The notes below the pieces were generated by a model, which saw only the letters and a list, made by a program, of their open reading frames with translations, did no database searches and was not told the origin of the DNA. A DNA stretch of 42,707 nt. Source: a virus. Where the stretch lies: positions 1 through 42,707 of IMG/VR virus record IMGVR_UViG_3300037827_000112, one strand, 5' to 3'. Below, piece by piece: positions 5,440-37,262 of this stretch. Each line of letters starts with the position of its first letter. The stretch's first letter is position 1. The position numbers were made by a program, and so were the translations under genes.

Positions 5440-8400
5440 CAGATTCACCCATCGGCGAGATACCTATCCTCGTAACTGCGGACTTTGGTGACGTCGAAAC
5501 GGGCATCACCGCCGCGGTATCTGCGGCAAGTGCGGGCGCGGATGCCATCGCATCAGCGTTTGATATTCCGGATCTCACCACCGGGCTTTCGGATCAACTC
5601 AATCTTTTCGCGGATGCGTCAACTAACGCGGGCGCCGCGGCGGCAGCGGCAGCCGATCAGCTGGCGCTATTCGATACCAACGCCATCGAAGCCGCTGACT
5701 CGATGGAGCAAGCCGGCGATGGGCTGGCGGCTATGGCCAGCGGCGCGGAAGCGGCATCGTCATCGCTTGGTGAAACTGGAGATGCCGCCGAAGAAGCCGG
5801 CACAGAAGCCGAAGGCGCTGAGGGTGGATTCGCTGGGCTCGCGGAATCCATGCTCGCGGTCGGCGAAGCCCTGGTCATCACTGAAGGTCTGAAGGAATTC
5901 GGGGAAGAAGCGCTGAATGCGTATGGAACGGTGCAGAGCGTCACCATTGGGTTGACGCAGCTCACCGGATCCGCTGAACAGGCCGAGACGATCATTAACC
6001 AGATCAAGGAACTGGCAGCGACGGAGCCGTTTGCTTTCCCTGATATCGCACCTACCGTGCAGAAGATGGTCGCGCTAGGAGTCGCGGCGGATCAAATCCC
6101 AGGCGTCATGCAAGCCGTTGCGGATGCCGCGGCGGCGACCGGGAACCAGTTCAATCAGGTCGCCAACTCGTTTGATCGCATGACGCTGTCGGGCACCGTC
6201 AACGCGCGCGCGTTAGTCCAGTTGGGCATCAGCACTCAAGGGCTCGGCGATGTGATGGGCGTGGCGTCCGACCAGGTCAAGGCTGCTTTCCTGGCGATGG
6301 ATCAATCCGATCGCATCGAAACCCTAGAAGCTGCGATGGGTAAATTCGCGGGCTCTGCAGAGGCACAGGCTGCGGGCATCAAGGGCGCCTGGCAGATTTT
6401 CGAAAACCAGTTTGAGGAAGTCATGGTTGGCGTGGGGGAAGCGCTTGCGCCAGCGGCTGTCGCAATTCTCAACTTTGGAAAGACGGCGCTCGCGTCGATT
6501 CAGGAAGCCGTCGACGCTTTCAATTCGCTGTCCGAACCGGTAAAGGAATTCGCCGGGTTTGTAGCGATCGCTGTAGCGGCACTGGTCCCATTGACCGGCG
6601 TCGTCGCGGCGCTCGGGTTCGCTATATCTGGACTCCAAACGGCCGGCGTTGCGTTCAGTGGGATACTCACGACAGTTGGGATTGCTGGGGGTGAGGCTGC
6701 GGCGGGCGTCGAGGGCGCCGAAGTCGCGGCCACTGGGCTAGGCGGCGCGTTCGGCTCACTCATCCCGGTCGCGGCTGCGGTTGCTGGCGCCCTCGCTTTT
6801 GCGTGGCTGACCGGAACGGTAGATGCTTTCGAGAACTTTGGCACGGCCGCTAAGAACCTTGCGGCGACATTCGATATCGTTGGGGCTTCCGCCGGTTCAC
6901 TCAGTGGCGCATTTAGCCCGCTCACTCTCGCGCTTCAGCTTGTCGATACATCGATCGGCTCTCTGATCTCAAAGGCGGGCGGCTGGGAGACATTTTGGGT
7001 AGGCTTTAAAATTGCCGTCAATCCGGCGGCGGATGCATTAAACGCCATGGCCGCGGTGATGACGCTGTTCAGCGGCAAGATCAGCACGATGGACCCGTTG
7101 ATGGCGTCCATGCTTCAGAAGTTCCAAGCTGTTCCGCCGGCGACCGACGGAGCGACGGACGGAACGAACAAGTTCTCAGCTGGGCTTCAGAAGGTCGTCG
7201 ACGCGCAACTAAAAGCGAATACCGAAGTTGCGGCGGCGAAGCAGACCCTCGACGACGCTGGAGCGGCGCTGGCAGCCGGGACGATTACTCAAGGGACGTA
7301 CAATGCGGCGCTGCTGGCCTACGATAACGCGCTTCAGAAAGCCAATCCGCACGGTAAGGACTTCGCGTCGACAGTCGCAGGAATCGAAGCGGCGGCGGCT
7401 AAGGCTCAGGCGACCTTTAAAAGTTCGCTCTCCGTTTACGATCAGTTGGTTATCGGGTTCCAAAATGGCAGTGTGTCGGCGGCGGTTCTCGATGAAGCCT
7501 ATACGAAGCTCGAAGCCAGTGCGAAGAAAGCCGGGCAAGCAATCGCGGACGCAACTGGCATCCTGGCGCAATGGCAGCAACAGAACGCGCAAACTCAGGC
7601 AGTTTCTACGGCGACGACAGACGCCCTCGACGAACTCACCAAAAAGTTCAATGACGGCGATATCTCGATTCAGCAGTACACCTCGGATTACGCCAAGTGG
7701 CAGGCGGCGCAGAAGGCGGCCGGGGATGTTGCGGTAACCGTCGAAGGCCAAGTAGCTGCACTGACAAACACTGTCGCACTTCAACAGGGGACGCTCGCGG
7801 TAAACATCGTTGCGTGGGGCCAACTCGCAACAGCCGCACTCACAAATTCAAAGGATCTCCCGGCGGCCGCTGATGCGATGAAACTCGTACAAAGCGAAGC
7901 GTCCGCGCTCGGCATCACAATCACACAGGTAGGGCAGGGCTACACGCTTTCGTCGACTAATATGACGGCGGCGGGACAAGCCTCCGTGAAGGCGCTTGCC
8001 GAGCAGATGACGCAAGCTGGGCTTACCGTGCAAACGATCAGCGGTGGTATCCCGGTCTACACCGATGCCGCCACCGGCGTGACGGTCTACGGAAAAGCGC
8101 TTTCTTCAACGACTGGCAATTTGGAAGACGTAAATACCGGGATTATTCGGTTGAACGTCAACCTTCCGGGCCATGCCGCAGCACTTCAGGCGGCGGCGGT
8201 TGCTGCTGGACAGCACGCGGTGGCTCTTGGCGGCCTAAACACGGCTGCGCTGAACGTCGACCCGTCGCTGTTCAATGTGACGGCGGCGGTTAATAATCTG
8301 ACGACGGCAGGGAAAGGCTCAGTCAACACCTTCGAGAATGCGCTTTCGGTTTTTAATAACCTCGCGTCGCAAACAAACCTGACGGTGCAGCAGCAAGTCG

Positions 8401-30650: not shown

Positions 30651-31427
30651 ATGCCGAACGGGCCGACAGTCTGCGCAATCATGCTCACGAAGGACAGGCC
30701 GGAGCTGGCCGCCAAAGCGGTCGAGTGCTTCAGAAAGCAGACTTACCCAGTAAAGGCGCTTTATCTTCAGGATTTCGGAGTTCAGCGTTTCGATCCGGGA
30801 AACGTTCGTGATCTTCGGATGTGTCTGGCGTGGGACGCGCCGAATGGAACCATCGGAAGCAACCGAAACGCCGCGAACAAAGGCGCGAGCGGTTACCAGT
30901 TCCGGAACCAAACCTCCGCGCCATGGCTATCGCCCGACATCTTCATCCACTGGGACGATGACGACTGGAGCCATCCGAACCGCATCGCGGAGCAAGTCGC
31001 ATTCCTTCAGGCGAGCGGCGCGGACGCAGTGGGTTTCAACGAAATGCTGTTCTGGCGCACATTCACCCACATCGAGGACCATTACTGCGAGGGCGGCGAA
31101 TGCTGCGCGCCGCAAGCGTGGCTCTACTCTCATCCTCGACCCGATAGACCTCTTGGCACATCGCTGTGTTACTGGAGAAAGACATGGGAGCGTAAGCCAT
31201 TTGCCGATGGGCCTAAGCCGGGAATGCCGAGCGAATTTTTCCACTGGTTCAGGGAATTGAAGGTGGTCGCGGTGTCGTCTTTGGAGCGCGGCGAACCGCG
31301 GATGGTCGCGCGGATTCATGGAGCCAACTTCGGAACATACGATTTAGAAGGGCTGATCGCCGGCGGTTCGCGTGAGTGGAAACGGGTGCCGGATTGGGAC
31401 GAAAGGATTCGCAGCATACTCGCATGA
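30651..31427 (+). CDS. Family 2-like glycosyltransferase (GT-A)
   Basis: 258 residues. Opens like a GT2 enzyme: TVCAIMLTKDRPELAAKAVE, and has FIHWDDDDWSHPNRIAEQVA, the DxD metal site, about residue 100. The second half (GTSLCYWRKTWERKPFADG) fits acceptor-side elements. First gene of the island; predicted leaderless transcript. Its stop overlaps the start of a transposase fragment, so its original 3' neighbour has probably been replaced. Sugar donor and acceptor unknown. Confidence 0.8.
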   Translation: MPNGPTVCAIMLTKDRPELAAKAVECFRKQTYPVKALYLQDFGVQRFDPGNVRDLRMCLAWDAPNGTIGSNRNAANKGASGYQFRNQTSAPWLSPDIFIHWDDDDWSHPNRIAEQVAFLQASGADAVGFNEMLFWRTFTHIEDHYCEGGECCAPQAWLYSHPRPDRPLGTSLCYWRKTWERKPFADGPKPGMPSEFFHWFRELKVVAVSSLERGEPRMVARIHGANFGTYDLEGLIAGGSREWKRVPDWDERIRSILA

Positions 31428-31600
31428 AGAAACATCACGCTTCCCCGAAGCATCTGGCGCGGTACGTCGATGAGTTCGCATTTCGATTGAACGAAGGCAA
31501 CGTCAAGCGCCACACATTCGAGCGCCTTGATTCGTTCGTGGACGCCATCGTAGGGAAACGCCTGACGTATGCTCGGTTGATTGCCAAGGTGCCAGCATGA
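31424..31600 (+). pseudogene. IS1595-family transposase, C-terminal fragment
   Basis: 58 residues: KKHHASPKHLARYVDEFAFR then LNEGNVKRHTFERLDSFVDA and GKRLTYARLIA. The phrase SPKHLxRYxDEFxFR and the ending RLTYxxLIA are the C-terminus of ISXO2/IS1595 DDE transposases, whose full length is near 300 residues. The catalytic core is absent, so the fragment cannot transpose. It still has an ATGA coupled to the upstream glycosyltransferase and may be translated as a small protein. Confidence 0.75.
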
Positions 31601-31764
31601 GCGACATCCGAATCAGAACGAACGCCGGTTGCATTGAGAATTACTGTAATGAGCGCCTGTTCAATAAAGACGACTCGAAAGAGATTCGTGATGTATTTCG
31701 CCAGATCCTTGCTCACGTTAAGGCCATCCTTGAAGCCGATGCCGACGAGAGAAAGAAAGGCTAA
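31597..31764 (+). CDS. 55-residue protein downstream of transposase fragment
   Basis: ATGA overlap with the transposase fragment; stop TAA lies inside the 8-bp duplicated target CTAACTAT. Helical, charged sequence (IENYCNERLFNKDDSKEIRD, VKAILEADADERKKG). Probably the second ORF of the old insertion sequence, carried along rather than native to the phage. Function unknown. Confidence 0.55.
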   Translation: MSDIRIRTNAGCIENYCNERLFNKDDSKEIRDVFRQILAHVKAILEADADERKKG

Positions 31765-31768
31765 CTAT
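31761..31768 (+). repeat. Target site duplication, left copy (CTAACTAT)
   Basis: CTAACTAT directly precedes the left terminal inverted repeat and recurs at 32223-32230 directly after the right one. Eight bases is the duplication length known for IS1595-family elements. Confidence 0.85.
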
Positions 31769-31795
31769 GGGAATTATATACATGACTACCTCAGC
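31769..31795 (+). repeat. Left 27-bp terminal inverted repeat of the cassette
   Basis: Begins GGGAATTATATACATGAC and ends CTCAGC; the exact reverse complement is at 32196-32222. Confidence 0.95.
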
Positions 31796-31807
31796 GAGGA
31801 GGTTGAG

Positions 31808-32200
31808 ATGCCAACATTGAGGGAACTTGAAGCGCAATTCATCGCCTATCGAGAAGAGACTAAGGAGGAGATGTTCGCTCGCGGCCACATCAAACCAGCA
31901 GCCTTGTTTCAGCGCGTTGGTATGCTGCAAGAAGCTCACGGTGTGCGTTTTATTTGCCCGAAGTCGTTCGCCACGCACGGCGGAAAGGTTGGAGCGCATT
32001 CTGTGCAGGTGTATTTTGCGGGCAGCCCAGTTCCTAGCGATATGGGGACGAACAAGGACGGCCAAACCGTTCGTTGGAACGCCTCTGGAACGTCTCTTGA
32101 CGATTTATCTCTCTCGCCGTCGATTCAGGAGCAGGACAGCATTTGTGGATGGCACGGATTTGTAGGAAACAGCGGCGTCCCTGCTGGAAGTGCAAGCTGA
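31808..32200 (+). CDS. Cassette gene: DUF6527-like phage protein
   Basis: 130 residues. A GAGGAGG ribosome site lies just inside the left repeat (31796-31802). Longer open frame upstream runs through the repeat and is not needed. N-terminal helices (LRELEAQFIAYREETKEEMF), then ICPKSFATHGGKVGAHSVQV, TVRWNASGTSLDDLSLSPSI and ICGWHGFVGNSG. The CGWHGF motif and the RW-SG-L-L-L-PS pattern match DUF6527-like small phage proteins. The last codons and stop use bases of the right repeat. Function unknown; it is the cargo of the cassette. Confidence 0.6.
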   Translation: MPTLRELEAQFIAYREETKEEMFARGHIKPAALFQRVGMLQEAHGVRFICPKSFATHGGKVGAHSVQVYFAGSPVPSDMGTNKDGQTVRWNASGTSLDDLSLSPSIQEQDSICGWHGFVGNSGVPAGSAS

Positions 32201-32222
32201 GGTAGTCATGTATATAATTCCC
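32196..32222 (-). repeat. Right 27-bp terminal inverted repeat of the cassette
   Basis: Reverse complement of 31769-31795 without mismatch. Contains the TGA stop of the cassette gene at 32198-32200. Confidence 0.95.
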
Positions 32223-32230
32223 CTAACTAT
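32223..32230 (+). repeat. Target site duplication, right copy (CTAACTAT)
   Basis: Second copy of the 8-bp duplication, directly after the right terminal repeat. Confidence 0.85.
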
Positions 32231-32232
32231 AC

Positions 32233-32249
32233 TCATGTATATAATTCCC
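32233..32249 (-). repeat. Third IS-end copy (right end of the IS1595 relic)
   Basis: TCATGTATATAATTCCC matches the outer 17 bases of the cassette's right repeat in the same orientation, then diverges. Taken as the surviving right end of the relic into which the cassette jumped. Confidence 0.75.
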
Positions 32250-32387
32250 AAACCAATACCACCTGAAAAGCTCTCGCGCATCAAGAAACGCGCCGCGCTC
32301 GCGGCCCGACACCGGCGCGACCCAGGCAATACTGAAATGGTCTACGGAAGCGGAAAGCGCGGCTCATTTGAAACGAGGAAGCGATAA
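32235..32387 (+). CDS. 50-residue basic protein, start inside an IS end
   Basis: ATG 32235 lies in the relic's right end; the stop overlaps the next ATG (TAATG). Lys/Arg-rich (EKLSRIKKRAALAARHRRDP, ETRKR). It may be the rest of a gene whose 5' end was destroyed by the IS, now starting from an ATG supplied by the IS end. No function recognised. Confidence 0.4.
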   Translation: MYIIPKPIPPEKLSRIKKRAALAARHRRDPGNTEMVYGSGKRGSFETRKR

Positions 32388-33226
32388 TGTCAGTTTGGCT
32401 CTGTATCCCATCGAAGCGACCACCTCAAGAAGCCGAGAAGGTTCTGAAGTTGTGGCGCAAGCGCGGTTATAGGATTGCCCTGTTCTTGGACGATTGGAGG
32501 TTTGAGAACCGAACATATGATCGCATTCTGAGTGGTTTTACGACGGGTGGCTACCCAGGTTACGCGAATGCCGTGAACGCCCTCGTAAAAGACGTGGCGT
32601 ACATGGACTCAACCGCCGAATGGTTCATCGCGGCAGGTGACGATGTCGAACCGGATCTGAATCACTCAGCCGAAGAAATCGCGATTGAATGCTCGTCGTA
32701 TTTCGGTCGGATAAACGGCGTGTATAAGGTGGAATGTTTGAACTTCTACCAAGACCCGGACTTATCCGCAAGGGGGATACTTGGGCGTCCTGACTCCACC
32801 TTTGGCGTCATGCAACCGACAGGCGACCGCTGGGGAGACTCAACAGTCTCACGCCAGCGCTACGGACAGAACCGCGGCGCCTACATCGATCGCGTCTGTG
32901 GATCAGCATGGATCGGTCGCGAATTCGCGAAACGCGTGAATCAAGGCAACGGCCCGCTGTGGCCGGAATACAAGCACCAGTTCGTTGACGAGGAGCTTCA
33001 GGAAGTCGCAACGAAGCTGGGCGTCTTCTGGCAGCGACCGGACCTGATCCAGCTTCATCGACATTGGGGGCGCGGACCCGAAGCAGCGCCGAACATGCCG
33101 GGCCAACTGGAGAGAATGCCGGAGTTTCTGAAAGAGGCGAACTCGCCGGAGCATTGGGAAAAGTACAAGACGTTGCTCGAGAAGCGTAAGGCTGCGGGAT
33201 TCCCTGGATCGGAGTTGCTTCCGTGA
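32387..33226 (+). CDS. Glycosyltransferase-like protein
   Basis: 279 residues. Opening SVWLCIPSKRPPQEAEKVLK, then EWFIAAGDDVEPDLNHSAEE with a GDD-type acidic cluster where GT-A enzymes bind the metal and sugar nucleotide, and DSTFGVMQPTGDRWGD and VCGSAWIGREFAKRVNQGNG in the second half. The arrangement fits phage GT-A enzymes more than cellular GT2 proteins. ATG overlaps the previous stop. Next gene starts at GTGA. Confidence 0.65.
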   Translation: MSVWLCIPSKRPPQEAEKVLKLWRKRGYRIALFLDDWRFENRTYDRILSGFTTGGYPGYANAVNALVKDVAYMDSTAEWFIAAGDDVEPDLNHSAEEIAIECSSYFGRINGVYKVECLNFYQDPDLSARGILGRPDSTFGVMQPTGDRWGDSTVSRQRYGQNRGAYIDRVCGSAWIGREFAKRVNQGNGPLWPEYKHQFVDEELQEVATKLGVFWQRPDLIQLHRHWGRGPEAAPNMPGQLERMPEFLKEANSPEHWEKYKTLLEKRKAAGFPGSELLP

Positions 33227-33444
33227 GCGAAAATGGCGAGCGCGTTACGATCAGCCAATTGATCGCGGAGCTTGAGAAGATCAAGGCTCGCGATGGTGAC
33301 CTTGGCGTCTCATGCCGATGTTTACAGCACGGAGTGTTTGAGCGTTGGAAGTTAAACATTATCAGGAACTTTGATAACGTCCCGACCGTTCTGTCGTTCT
33401 GGGAAACCGATACATACGAGAACCTGCGGCCCGTTGCTCTTTAA
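33223..33444 (+). CDS. Small SELI/GDxDV-type phage protein
   Basis: 73 residues, GTG start overlapping the preceding TGA. Contains ISQLIAELEKIKARDGDLGV, like the gene at 18311 (ASELIKVLQDVISEHGDVDV), then short strands (WKLNIIRNFDNVPTVLSFWE). Two copies of one family in one genome. Function unknown. Confidence 0.6.
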   Translation: MSENGERVTISQLIAELEKIKARDGDLGVSCRCLQHGVFERWKLNIIRNFDNVPTVLSFWETDTYENLRPVAL

Positions 33445-33472
33445 ATGCGAAAAAGACGGAGAACCTGCACCC

Positions 33473-34297
33473 ATGGTCGAAGACCAACCTGACTGGGTTC
33501 ATCCAATCAACGAATCGAGCAACCGCGCTATCGTCTCGGCCGGGCTCGGTTCGCAGCATTACCGAAAGCTGCTTCGCTCGACGGAAAATCACTGCGCCGT
33601 TCACTGTCCAGACACTTGGCGGCTGTTCTTTGACGTTCTGCCGGCTGGCTGCGTACCGCATGAGCGGCGTCCGTACAAATTCAAACTCGCGGCGCTAGAG
33701 CGGCCCATCAGTGCGGGATTCCGATATGTGGTCTGGATGGACTCGACATTCCAACCGGTCGATTCGATTGAACCGCTGTGGGAGCATATTGCGGAGCACG
33801 GCTGGTATTGCGCGCGCCAGGGCGATGCAAAGCTGGGCGAGTGGACCACGGACGCAGCGCTTGACCGGTTTTGCCTGAACCGCGACGCGGCGATGAACAT
33901 TCCGTTGGTCTATAGCGGATTGGTGGGGTTCGACATGATGAGCGACCCGGGCAAGCAAATCTGGCAATCGTGGCGCGGATTGGAGACGCTCGGAGTTTTC
34001 GCCGGCGCCCACGAGAATATCCCGCACGCGCCGTTCGGCAATCACGGCCTGAAGTGGGTCGGGCACTGTTCGGCAGATCCGCGGTGTAAGGGTCACCGGC
34101 ACGACGAGAGCGCGTTATCGTTCATCCTCAGCCTATTGAAATTGACTCCGGTTGATGAGGACTTCGCGGGGCTGGGAATCGGCCGGCACGTGCCGGATTA
34201 CGATGTGGTCAAGATGCGTCAGACGCTGCTGTCGGAAGTCAACGACGCTTGCGATTTCCCTGCCTGGCAGGAAGAGGTTATCAAATTGTGCCGGTAA
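33473..34297 (+). CDS. Glycosyltransferase-like protein, paralog of 35430 gene
   Basis: 274 residues from ATG 33473 (ACGGAGA upstream); an earlier in-frame start at 33371 lies in the previous gene. YKFKLAALERPISAGFRYVV, WMDSTFQPVDSIEPLWEHIA and GHRHDESALSFILSLL line up with KAYALKNVADAGDETLLWCD and GHRHDQSAASVIAW of the protein at 35430. The Met-Asp-Ser and Cys-Asp-Ala acidic positions may be the metal site. A HRHD(E/Q)SA motif in both suggests a conserved active-site element. The 28-base gap before it is empty. Confidence 0.6.
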   Translation: MVEDQPDWVHPINESSNRAIVSAGLGSQHYRKLLRSTENHCAVHCPDTWRLFFDVLPAGCVPHERRPYKFKLAALERPISAGFRYVVWMDSTFQPVDSIEPLWEHIAEHGWYCARQGDAKLGEWTTDAALDRFCLNRDAAMNIPLVYSGLVGFDMMSDPGKQIWQSWRGLETLGVFAGAHENIPHAPFGNHGLKWVGHCSADPRCKGHRHDESALSFILSLLKLTPVDEDFAGLGIGRHVPDYDVVKMRQTLLSEVNDACDFPAWQEEVIKLCR

Positions 34298-34836
34298 GCG
34301 CGTGGCAGGGCGTGAGCGCCATCATGGACGAGATTGATCGTCTCGCGCCGAAATCCGTCCTCGATTTGGGTGTGGGCTTCGGCAAGTATGGCGTGCTCTG
34401 CCGTGAGCTGCTGGACGCACGGCACGGTCGCTGCCGGCCGGAACAGTGGCAGACGCGCATCGTGGGCTACGAAGCGCACCGAGCCTACGTCAATCCGTGC
34501 TGGCACGTCTACACGTGCGTCATCGAAAACGATTTCACGAAATACGCGGCCAGGGGCTTCGATTTGGTGCTGATGATAGACTCGCTTGAGCATCTTGAGC
34601 CGAACGTCGGAAAACGGTATTTGTGGGAGTTGGTTCACCAAAACAAACAGGTGATCGTGAGCGTCCCGAATGGGTTGATGGAGCAGGGCGAAGTTTACGG
34701 GAATGCGTTTGAGGCGCACAAGTGGACGTTCAACGGGACCGAAGAATTTGAGCAGTACGAATTCAAGCTTATCCACCAAAGCGTCTGCACGGTGGTGAGC
34801 ATCAAGGGGATTGAGAATGAAGAATCGAGACGGTGA
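34288..34836 (+). CDS. SAM-dependent methyltransferase, class I
   Basis: 182 residues from GTG 34288, overlapping the previous gene by ten bases, with GAAGAGG upstream. Motif I VLDLGVGFGKYGVLCRELL (about 21-39) and FDLVLMIDSLEHLEPNVG (motif IV/post-I acidic loop) are typical of Methyltransf_11/23 small-molecule or glycan methyltransferases. Position between two glycosyltransferase-like genes suggests that it O-methylates a sugar made or added by the island. Confidence 0.8.
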   Translation: MPVSAWQGVSAIMDEIDRLAPKSVLDLGVGFGKYGVLCRELLDARHGRCRPEQWQTRIVGYEAHRAYVNPCWHVYTCVIENDFTKYAARGFDLVLMIDSLEHLEPNVGKRYLWELVHQNKQVIVSVPNGLMEQGEVYGNAFEAHKWTFNGTEEFEQYEFKLIHQSVCTVVSIKGIENEESRR

Positions 34837-34839
34837 TTA

Positions 34840-35433
34840 ATGTACTCGCAGGATCAGGAAGAGCAACACATCCTCGCGGCGCTGCGTGATGTGCCCGGCT
34901 TCGGTCACCAGGCGCGATTCCTGGACATTGGCGCATGGCACCCGAAAACCTTCAGCAACACCCGCGCACTGTTTGAACTCGGATGGTCTGGTGTCATGAT
35001 TGAGCCTTCGCCAGGTCCAATGCTCAACCTGCTCGCCGACTACGGCAATGAGCCGCGCATCGCACTGGTCTCGGCCGCTGTTGGTCTTGAGACTGGCTTC
35101 GCGTCCATGCACATCACGGACGACGCGGTATCGACACTGGACGCCAAGAGCTTCGAGATGTGGAAAGACCACGCGAAGTTTCACGGCTCGATGTCCGTGC
35201 CGATTATCACACTCGAAGATATCGCGATGCGATTCGGTGGGTTCGACTTCTGGAACATAGATGCCGAGGGGATCAGCGTGGATTTATTCAAACGGATGAT
35301 GGTGTTGGGACATGAGCCGCGTTGTGTGTGTGTCGAGCACGACGGGCGCGAAGGCGAACTGATTTCGTCGGCCAGCTTGAAGTACAACGTGGTCTATGGA
35401 AATGGAACGAACCTCGTGATGGTGCGGAAATGA
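34840..35433 (+). CDS. FkbM-family methyltransferase
   Basis: 197 residues. FLDIGAWHPKTFSNTRALFE (SAM-binding motif I variant of FkbM), SGVMIEPSPGPMLNLLADYG, LVSAAVGLETG, and a C-terminal IPIITLEDIAMRFG-type and FDFWNIDAEG, in the exact order of the FkbM family, which O-methylates sugars and small molecules. Second methyltransferase of the island, starting three bases after the first ends. Confidence 0.85.
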   Translation: MYSQDQEEQHILAALRDVPGFGHQARFLDIGAWHPKTFSNTRALFELGWSGVMIEPSPGPMLNLLADYGNEPRIALVSAAVGLETGFASMHITDDAVSTLDAKSFEMWKDHAKFHGSMSVPIITLEDIAMRFGGFDFWNIDAEGISVDLFKRMMVLGHEPRCVCVEHDGREGELISSASLKYNVVYGNGTNLVMVRK

Positions 35434-36230
35434 GGCGCTGCATCGTAAATGTCGCGACGGGACGGTATGTCAAAGGGCAAGAGCGAATGCGCGAAGCATT
35501 CCGAATTCCCGGCTGCGGCGAGATGACAGTAGCGACGTGGCCCGATGAGCTTCCAGATGGATGCCCACCGCACGCCGAGGTTCCGTACGCGATGAAGGCG
35601 TACGCTCTCAAAAACGTGGCCGATGCTGGCGATGAAACTCTACTTTGGTGCGATGCCTGCATACTCCCCGGCGCCCGACCGCTTACTGACTTATGGGAAA
35701 AGATCGAACGTGATGGCGTGTGGCTCGCGAACAACGGATTCTCGAATTACGAATGGACGGCGGATTTCGCGTATCCGGAGTTGTTTCGAGAAGAACTCGC
35801 AAAGTGGGGCATTGATCCTGATCGACACTCGCCGCTCCCAGCGTACCTGCTGGAGGAATTACGAAAGCTCAATAAAAAGATCCCGCACGTGGTGGCGACG
35901 GCGTTCGGAATCTCGTTAAAGCATCCCAAGGGCAGAGCATTTCTGGATGAGTATTACCGTCTTGCAAGCGAAACGAAAGCGTTCTGTGGGCCGTGGACGA
36001 ATCTGGGGCGTACAGCGATGTATGCGCCAGATTTCACAGAGCAGTGGATGCCCGGTGAGCGTCAATGCGTGTGCGGACCTCCCGACGTGCGCGGCCATCG
36101 GCACGATCAGAGTGCCGCGAGCGTAATCGCGTGGCGGCTGGGAGTAGAATTGACGGACTGTCCCGAGTGGTTCAGCTATCGAGGAGGCGAGACGGATAAA
36201 ACCTGTCTCATTGCAGATGGAAGCTACTGA
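35430..36230 (+). CDS. Glycosyltransferase-like protein, paralog of 33473 gene
   Basis: 266 residues from the ATG overlapping the FkbM gene (ATGA). CIVNVATGRYVKGQERMREA at the N-terminus, ETLLWCDACILPGARPLTDL in the middle, GHRHDQSAASVIAWRLGVEL near the end. Shares the LW-x-D and GHRHD(E/Q)SA elements with the protein at 33473. No TM segment. Likely a sugar transferase acting on the same glycan, though catalysis is not proven by sequence. Confidence 0.6.
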   Translation: MRRCIVNVATGRYVKGQERMREAFRIPGCGEMTVATWPDELPDGCPPHAEVPYAMKAYALKNVADAGDETLLWCDACILPGARPLTDLWEKIERDGVWLANNGFSNYEWTADFAYPELFREELAKWGIDPDRHSPLPAYLLEELRKLNKKIPHVVATAFGISLKHPKGRAFLDEYYRLASETKAFCGPWTNLGRTAMYAPDFTEQWMPGERQCVCGPPDVRGHRHDQSAASVIAWRLGVELTDCPEWFSYRGGETDKTCLIADGSY

Positions 36231-36375
36231 CGATTTCACGCTGATTGAACAAGAGCTTGTAGCGCAAGCGCGGCTCATCACAGATGCGAAGTACGAAATG
36301 CGCGAGCAGGATTTCTACGAGTCGATACGCCACATAGTGCCGATCTGGTCCGAGCGTTGGGGATCACACGCATGA
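36217..36375 (+). CDS. 52-residue acidic helical protein
   Basis: Starts 14 bases before the preceding stop and ends by ATGA overlap with the next glycosyltransferase. Acidic, helical (DDFTLIEQELVAQARLITD, YEMREQDFYESIRHIVPIW). Short, but coupled on both sides. Function unknown. Confidence 0.5.
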   Translation: MEATDDFTLIEQELVAQARLITDAKYEMREQDFYESIRHIVPIWSERWGSHA

Positions 36376-37262
36376 AACTCACCGCGCTGATGCCGTGCCG
36401 GAATGAGGATTGGTGCCTCGGGCTCTCCGCGCGCGTGGCGCTCACCTGGGCCGATGCGTTGTGCATTCTGAACCACGCATCGACAGACGAAACCGTGGAC
36501 ATCATCGCCGAAGTCTCGCGCGAGCATCCTGGACGTGTTCATTTGATCTCGGCGCCGGAACTCCAGTGGTCAGAGATGCAACATCGGCAGATGCTGCTCG
36601 AAGCTGCGCGCGATCGCGGCGCAACCCACATCGCCATTGTCGACGCCGATGAAATCCTCACTGGCAACCTGATCGAATTCGCCCGCACCGGCATTGGAAC
36701 GGCGGCGGCGCGCGGACTGGTGGAGTTGCCTGGCTACAATCTCCGCGCCTCATTGAATCGCTATCACCTGAACGGAACATGGGGACGGCGGCATTTCGCT
36801 TTTGCGTTCGAAGACAATCCTCGATTGCACTGGTTCGAGAAAGGCCGAACGACGGAGCAATTTCACAAGCGTGTTCCGGATGGACCGCTGGAGAGGCGCA
36901 ATCCATCGCCGATTCCACAAGGCCACGGTGGGATCATGCACCTGTGGGGCGTGAGTGACCGGCGGCTACGCGCCAAGCACCGGGCGTACCGCATCACAGA
37001 AGCGTTGCGTTGGCCGGAGAAACCGCACGCTGAAATCGAGCGCATGTATTCGTGGTGGCGCACCGGGATAAAGCCCGAGGAGCCGAATAACTGGCAGTTC
37101 GCGGACGTGCCGGAGTCCTGGTGGTCGCCGTACGAGAAGTGGATGAAGTATCTCAACGTGAGCGCAATTCCATGGCAGGAAGCATGGTGCGATGAGATGA
37201 TAGAGAGACATGGCATTCAAAGATTTGAAGGGCTCTCGGTTCAATCGTCTTCTCGCGGTTGA
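36372..37262 (+). CDS. Family 2 glycosyltransferase
   Basis: 296 residues from ATG 36372. KLTALMPCRNEDWCLGLSAR and CILNHASTDETVDIIAEVSR are the nucleotide-sugar-binding start of GT2 enzymes; HIAIVDADEIL (about 95) holds the DxD. HFAFAFEDNPRLHWFEKGRT and HGGIMHLWGVSDRRLRAKHR follow. The last 18 residues (RHGIQRFEGLSVQSSSRG) are read out of phase through the start of the HNH-type gene, so the original C-terminus was probably altered. Confidence 0.8.
   Translation: MKLTALMPCRNEDWCLGLSARVALTWADALCILNHASTDETVDIIAEVSREHPGRVHLISAPELQWSEMQHRQMLLEAARDRGATHIAIVDADEILTGNLIEFARTGIGTAAARGLVELPGYNLRASLNRYHLNGTWGRRHFAFAFEDNPRLHWFEKGRTTEQFHKRVPDGPLERRNPSPIPQGHGGIMHLWGVSDRRLRAKHRAYRITEALRWPEKPHAEIERMYSWWRTGIKPEEPNNWQFADVPESWWSPYEKWMKYLNVSAIPWQEAWCDEMIERHGIQRFEGLSVQSSSRG

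Follow-up and report, generated by a model that had tools for sequence, protein, structure and literature searches.

A single-gene cassette in the genome of a tailed phage

How does a single gene come to lie between perfect inverted repeats, with no transposase, in the genome of a tailed phage? We address this question for a 454-bp element at positions 31769-32222 of the IMG/VR viral record IMGVR_UViG_3300037827_000112, a metagenome-derived sequence of an uncultivated phage whose tailed-phage identity follows from its terminase, portal, capsid/protease and tape-measure genes; the whole stretch of 42,707 bases is referred to here as the window. We assign a probability of about 0.88 to the reading that this element is a non-autonomous transposon (mobile insertion cassette, MIC) of a phage-resident IS1595-type lineage, placed there by a transposase acting in trans. 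All of the material behind this estimate is metagenome assembly, and transposition itself is inferred.

The element is bounded by 27-bp terminal inverted repeats, the left at 31769-31795 on the plus strand (GGGAATTATATACATGACTACCTCAGC) and the right, its exact reverse complement, at 32196-32222 on the minus strand. Outside them lie the two copies of an 8-bp target-site duplication, CTAACTAT, at 31761-31768 and 32223-32230. The core 17-mer of the end occurs three times in the window and not once in 100 shuffles. A single gene of 130 codons (31808-32200, plus strand) runs from an ATG at 31808 to a TGA at 32198-32200 that falls within the right repeat, and its ribosome-binding site, GAGGAGG (31796-31802), sits just inside the left one. 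An earlier note, made from the letters alone, had described these ends, the duplication, the placement of ribosome site and stop codon, and a single non-transposase gene resembling DUF6527; each point is borne out, with the caveat that the match to Pfam DUF6527 (E=5e-5, 23.4 bits) lies marginally below the gathering cut-off of 23.6. A predicted fold of the product reached a mean pLDDT of only 40 and was discarded. TATAAT is present in the ends, yet no promoter passes the promoter scan, so we do not claim an outward promoter; neither a terminator nor a promoter was called at the cassette ends.

By structure the element is a MIC, non-autonomous and with IS1595 family ends, while its mobilization in trans is inferred. 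It has the inverted repeats of an IS family on both sides, a passenger gene in place of a transposase (no similarity to IS1595 transposases and no transposase relic inside the 454 bp), and a target-site duplication. The terminal GG and 8-bp duplication that define the IS1595 family (PMC8101967) are found on the cassette itself, and the DDE_Tnp_IS1595 and zinc-ribbon transposase on sister elements with the same ends, not inside the cassette.

The gene has a full-length homolog, 75% identical, in contig L217, where it is an ordinary phage gene without such ends. Since DNA similarity between the two is restricted to the open reading frame, we regard the cargo as a gene that elsewhere belongs to ordinary phage content; the earlier note had called it phage-type. 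The same cargo was not found in another element among the delimited elements listed.

An older element at the insertion site

A third copy of the end, missed by the earlier note, lies at 32223-32249 on the minus strand (GGGAATTATATACATGAGTATAGTTAG; extra copy 32233-32249). Upstream of the cassette, similarity to intact transposases reveals the C-terminal remnant of an IS1595 transposase at 31433-31600 on the plus strand. This remnant comprises the last ~50 residues, is 78-80% identical to residues 254-304 of intact transposases (80-82% at the DNA level to L080, L012 and L078), and is the only IS1595 transposase sequence in the window. A translated 55-aa passenger gene (31597-31764, plus strand) overlaps the transposase stop codon (ATGA), and its TAA stop is included in the left copy of the target duplication.

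When the flanks are joined without the cassette (...AAAGAAAGG abutting CTAACTAT and ACTCATGTATATAATTCCC), they align without a break over 39 bp, at 97% identity, with the intact end of L120, and near-identical intact ends occur in L012, L106, L062 and L045. We interpret the joined flanks as the pre-insertion target, seen by homology and not in a sister phage, and the surrounding sequence as a left-truncated IS1595-type transposon into whose right end the cassette appears to have jumped. Because the third end is accompanied by the upstream transposase remnant and the 55-aa gene, the order we propose is an autonomous element, loss of its left part, and insertion of the cassette into its right end; the cassette is placed later because it is nested in that end. 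The left end of the older element was looked for and not found, and is taken as deleted for that reason. Both the deletion of the left part and its timing remain inferences.

A direct DNA search of 50,697 phage records with the cassette and its flanks returned no match. Sister phages, sought through the terminase (the nearest at 73%), lack the ends in the vicinity of the locus, and none of them provided a true empty site for the cassette; in contigs L137 and L075 both neighboring genes are kept (32-45% identity), with different sequence in between. Contig L075, which also encodes homologs of both genes flanking the insertion, carries at 6672-7524 an internally deleted IS1595 transposase remnant beside an intact end, much like the older element in the window. 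The cassette lies in a run of genes between terminase and portal (30651-37262), several of which look glycosyltransferase- or methyltransferase-like by eye and may decorate the virion; the two genes of this run that were searched gave no Pfam or PHROG match.

A family of elements with the same ends

The earlier note had proposed a search for further copies of the ends, and these proved abundant in viral contigs: the exact 17-mer GGGAATTATATACATGA occurs in at least 119 stretches, compared to 3 for a reversed 17-mer control, and the variant end GGGAATTATATACTTGASTMC in at least 120. Terminase, portal and head genes are found on the contigs that host elements. Among 84,980 cellular genomes (257 Gb), the 21-bp form of the end is confined to 13 stretches, all in metagenome-assembled genomes (MAGs). 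Stretches L126 and L133 are identical to IMG/VR contigs (L126 to L028, L133 to L019/L034), and some of the remaining stretches have phage-type genes nearby. The earlier statement that such cassettes are not typical of phages stands for isolated phages, judging from searches of phage records, and fails for uncultivated ones.

Pairing the nearest convergent ends among the matches listed gave an exact 8-bp duplication in 57 of 70 pairs of a first set. The enlarged set, again among the matches listed, comprises 104 distinct elements, 101 of which have perfect 8-bp duplications that differ from one another; pairs were admitted with up to one duplication mismatch, a rule under which chance favors one-mismatch cases by about 24 to 1. 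A full IS1595 transposase is present in 46 of these 104 elements, a partial one in 10, and none in 48. The consensus of the family end is GGGAATTATATACATGACTCCC. Targets are 21% G+C compared to 58% in the flanks; A or T fills positions 2 and 7, G is all but absent from position 1, and CTAACTAT conforms to this AT-rich pattern.

Several members have unusual forms. L046:1669-1714 is a 46-bp element of two ends back to back, without cargo and with the 8-bp duplication AAGCGCTT, possibly the smallest mobile form. At L254:7107-8602, two end pairs with duplications, of 476 and 1477 bp, overlap each other and may represent a nested insertion; a long open reading frame there looks DHH-type-like by eye. 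In L122:1406-2056, L301, L319 and others, the longest open reading frame starts at an ATG inside an end (TATACATGACTACC) or stops inside one, an arrangement in which the ends could also serve to start or stop translation.

A phage-resident transposase clade

Autonomous IS1595 elements with the same ends, a further check proposed at the outset, do exist, and they reside on phage contigs. Their transposases match Pfam DDE_Tnp_IS1595 and Zn_ribbon_IS1595 and NCBIfam IS1595. A single clade with 100/99 support unites 30 viral copies, four copies on MAG contigs with the same ends and one MAG copy with such an end, at 62-100% identity to the L028 query. Bacterial copies from MAG chromosomes, 407 plasmids and 297 genomes of one order share at most 48% full-length identity with L028, and the ends of these relatives are similar but different. 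Two IS1595-like proteins on viral contigs (L083 and L085, about 30%) fall outside the clade, and a search of the 50,697 phage records with the transposase yielded only three distant matches (34-37% identical). No autonomous element with the cassette's exact 24-bp end was found among the elements listed; the four cassettes in which GGGAATTATATACATGACTACCTC is shared by one end or both are without a transposase, though the right end of L070 carries ACTACCTC.

Named subgroups of the IS1595 family are IS1016, ISPna2, ISH4, ISSod11, ISNwi1 and ISNha5. The zinc ribbon speaks against the IS1016 subgroup (PMC8101967). On two bacterial plasmids (L229:1510-3814 and L231:757-3114), a hypothetical gene and then a PIN/VapC toxin gene come after an IS1595 transposase gene; both are possibly passengers, of a type unlike those of the phage lineage.

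Passengers and the origin of the cassettes

The 48 transposase-less elements, defined as showing no transposase similarity beyond a short tail among the matches listed, are mostly single-gene cassettes. Their longest open reading frame takes up a median 87.5% of the element length, and in 37 of the 48 its start is no more than 60 bp from an end. DNA methyltransferases or Mom, as assigned by Pfam, are present in 16 (about one third). The methylases are of the N6/N4 type in L105, L022, L029, L264, L280, L281, L312, L331 and L252, D12 in L299 (counted together with its 91% relative L300), C5 in L113, L132 and L305, and Dam in L089; L022 also encodes Mom. Further Pfam assignments include PTPS (L007), ASCH, DUF3307, RyR and DUF6527. 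Autonomous elements carry PAPS-reductase-like genes as passengers and also methylases. The transposase-less L112 (1046 bp) is colinear with L114 (2005 bp) except for ~950 bp that hold the transposase gene, and L104 and L029 retain transposase tails. These observations indicate that deletion of the transposase gene is at least one way in which cassettes form.

Evidence for movement and alternative explanations

Similarity between copies of two elements stops at the element borders. Copies of an autonomous element of 1561 bp, 99.7-99.9% identical to one another, occupy three different sites whose flanks are unrelated, a distribution that, judged from the sequences, is the mark of recent movement. 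A transposase-less methyltransferase cassette of 1069 bp is 91% identical at two sites (AATCTGAA and AAATTAAA), also with unrelated flanks, and would have moved in trans unless the same transposase deletion occurred twice; for mobilization of the 454-bp cassette in trans it provides indirect support. For the L084 element, a homologous site that is not interrupted exists in L152 (82% over 61 bp). No second copy of the 454-bp cassette was found. In the absence of such a copy and of an empty site in a sister phage, the case that this cassette moved rests by inference on its ends, its duplication and the restored target. The autonomous elements with the same ends, and the many cargo-only elements that share them in phage contigs, strongly support the earlier note's identification of a mobile insertion cassette.

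In the mechanism that we propose, one phage gene would have come to lie between two IS1595-type ends and been put into the phage by a transposase acting in trans. Autonomous members of the lineage carry the transposase together with passenger genes, and about half of the elements are cassettes in which the transposase has been lost and the passenger, with an end on either side, remains. The mobilizing transposase is inferred to come from a phage-borne element, either an intact copy once present in this genome or one in a co-infecting phage or prophage, and the cassette may have spread because its gene helps the phage.

The earlier note had instead looked to IS1595 elements of the bacterial host for the transposase. 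Host relatives are indeed common, with a match in 103 of the 297 genomes of one order, and one MAG contains an element with ends of similar sequence (GGGAATTATATCCATTAGTAAC) that is flanked by an 8-bp duplication. Transposases with exactly matching ends, however, sit on phage contigs in a clade of their own to which host enzymes are at most 48% identical, and among the cellular genomes the exact 21-bp end is restricted to the 13 MAG stretches described above, at least two of them on contigs identical to IMG/VR ones. A phage-borne helper is therefore likely; the IS1595-type ends stand, action in trans is inferred, and a host source, although not excluded, is improbable.

We give very little weight to either of two further explanations. 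That only one copy of the cassette is known would fit an old regulatory or terminator-like repeat around a resident, immobile phage gene, but in its simple form this idea is refuted by the target duplications and the restored target. It also fails to account for perfect and mutually different duplications in 101 of 104 elements (among the matches listed), for a closest native cargo homolog that lacks the ends, and for the absence of any called terminator or promoter there. An assembly artefact or chimeric contig must be considered for a metagenome-derived sequence judged from its assembly alone; against this, the same architecture recurs in more than 100 distinct elements on many contigs, and the same elements reappear in a second collection, as the identical MAG and IMG/VR contigs attest.

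Relation to known mobile elements

Entry of single extra genes into unrelated phages is largely attributed to recombination. The family described here provides a concrete route with readable ends, from which one can catalogue the genes that move, the phages they move between and the frequency of movement. That about one in three transposase-less cassettes carries a DNA methyltransferase or Mom gene suggests that host restriction acts as a selective force. We lean, with some reserve, towards a broader picture in which environmental phages have their own phage-restricted IS1595 branch whose single-gene cassettes are moved in trans between unrelated phages, which would thereby draw on a common pool of small genes with many DNA-modification (anti-restriction) functions, a DDE-transposase counterpart of integron cassettes.

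Insertion sequences are considered uncommon in phages (PMC8136500, citing Leclercq and Cordaux 2011). MICs (PMC3913671) and IS1595 passengers (PMC11891212) are already known, while the phage-resident lineage is apparently undescribed: a literature search for such a lineage with many single-gene cassettes found no report among papers that included few subscription titles.

MIC231 of Bacillus cereus (Chen et al. 1999, as described in PMC3913671) likewise has IS-family inverted ends around a non-transposase gene and a target duplication, and is mobilized in trans. It has IS231 (IS4-type) ends and resides in a bacterium, whereas the present cassette has IS1595-type ends, resides in a phage and has dozens of relatives with different genes. 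The IS1595 family and its "transporter IS" with passenger genes (Siguier et al. 2009, cited in PMC11891212 and PMC8101967) share with the phage lineage the GG ends, the 8-bp target duplication, the DDE_Tnp_IS1595 and zinc-ribbon transposase and the presence of passengers. Unlike the known members, the phage lineage forms a separate clade found almost only on viral contigs, its phage-type passengers are highly variable, and about half of its elements lack a transposase. The cassettes resemble MITEs in being short, non-autonomous and bounded by IS-family ends, but differ in holding a complete gene. Integron gene cassettes, which also occur in phages (PMC9892861), are likewise small mobile units of one gene each, served in trans by a common recombinase; they depend on an integrase and attC sites, whereas the phage-lineage cassettes use a DDE transposase and inverted ends.
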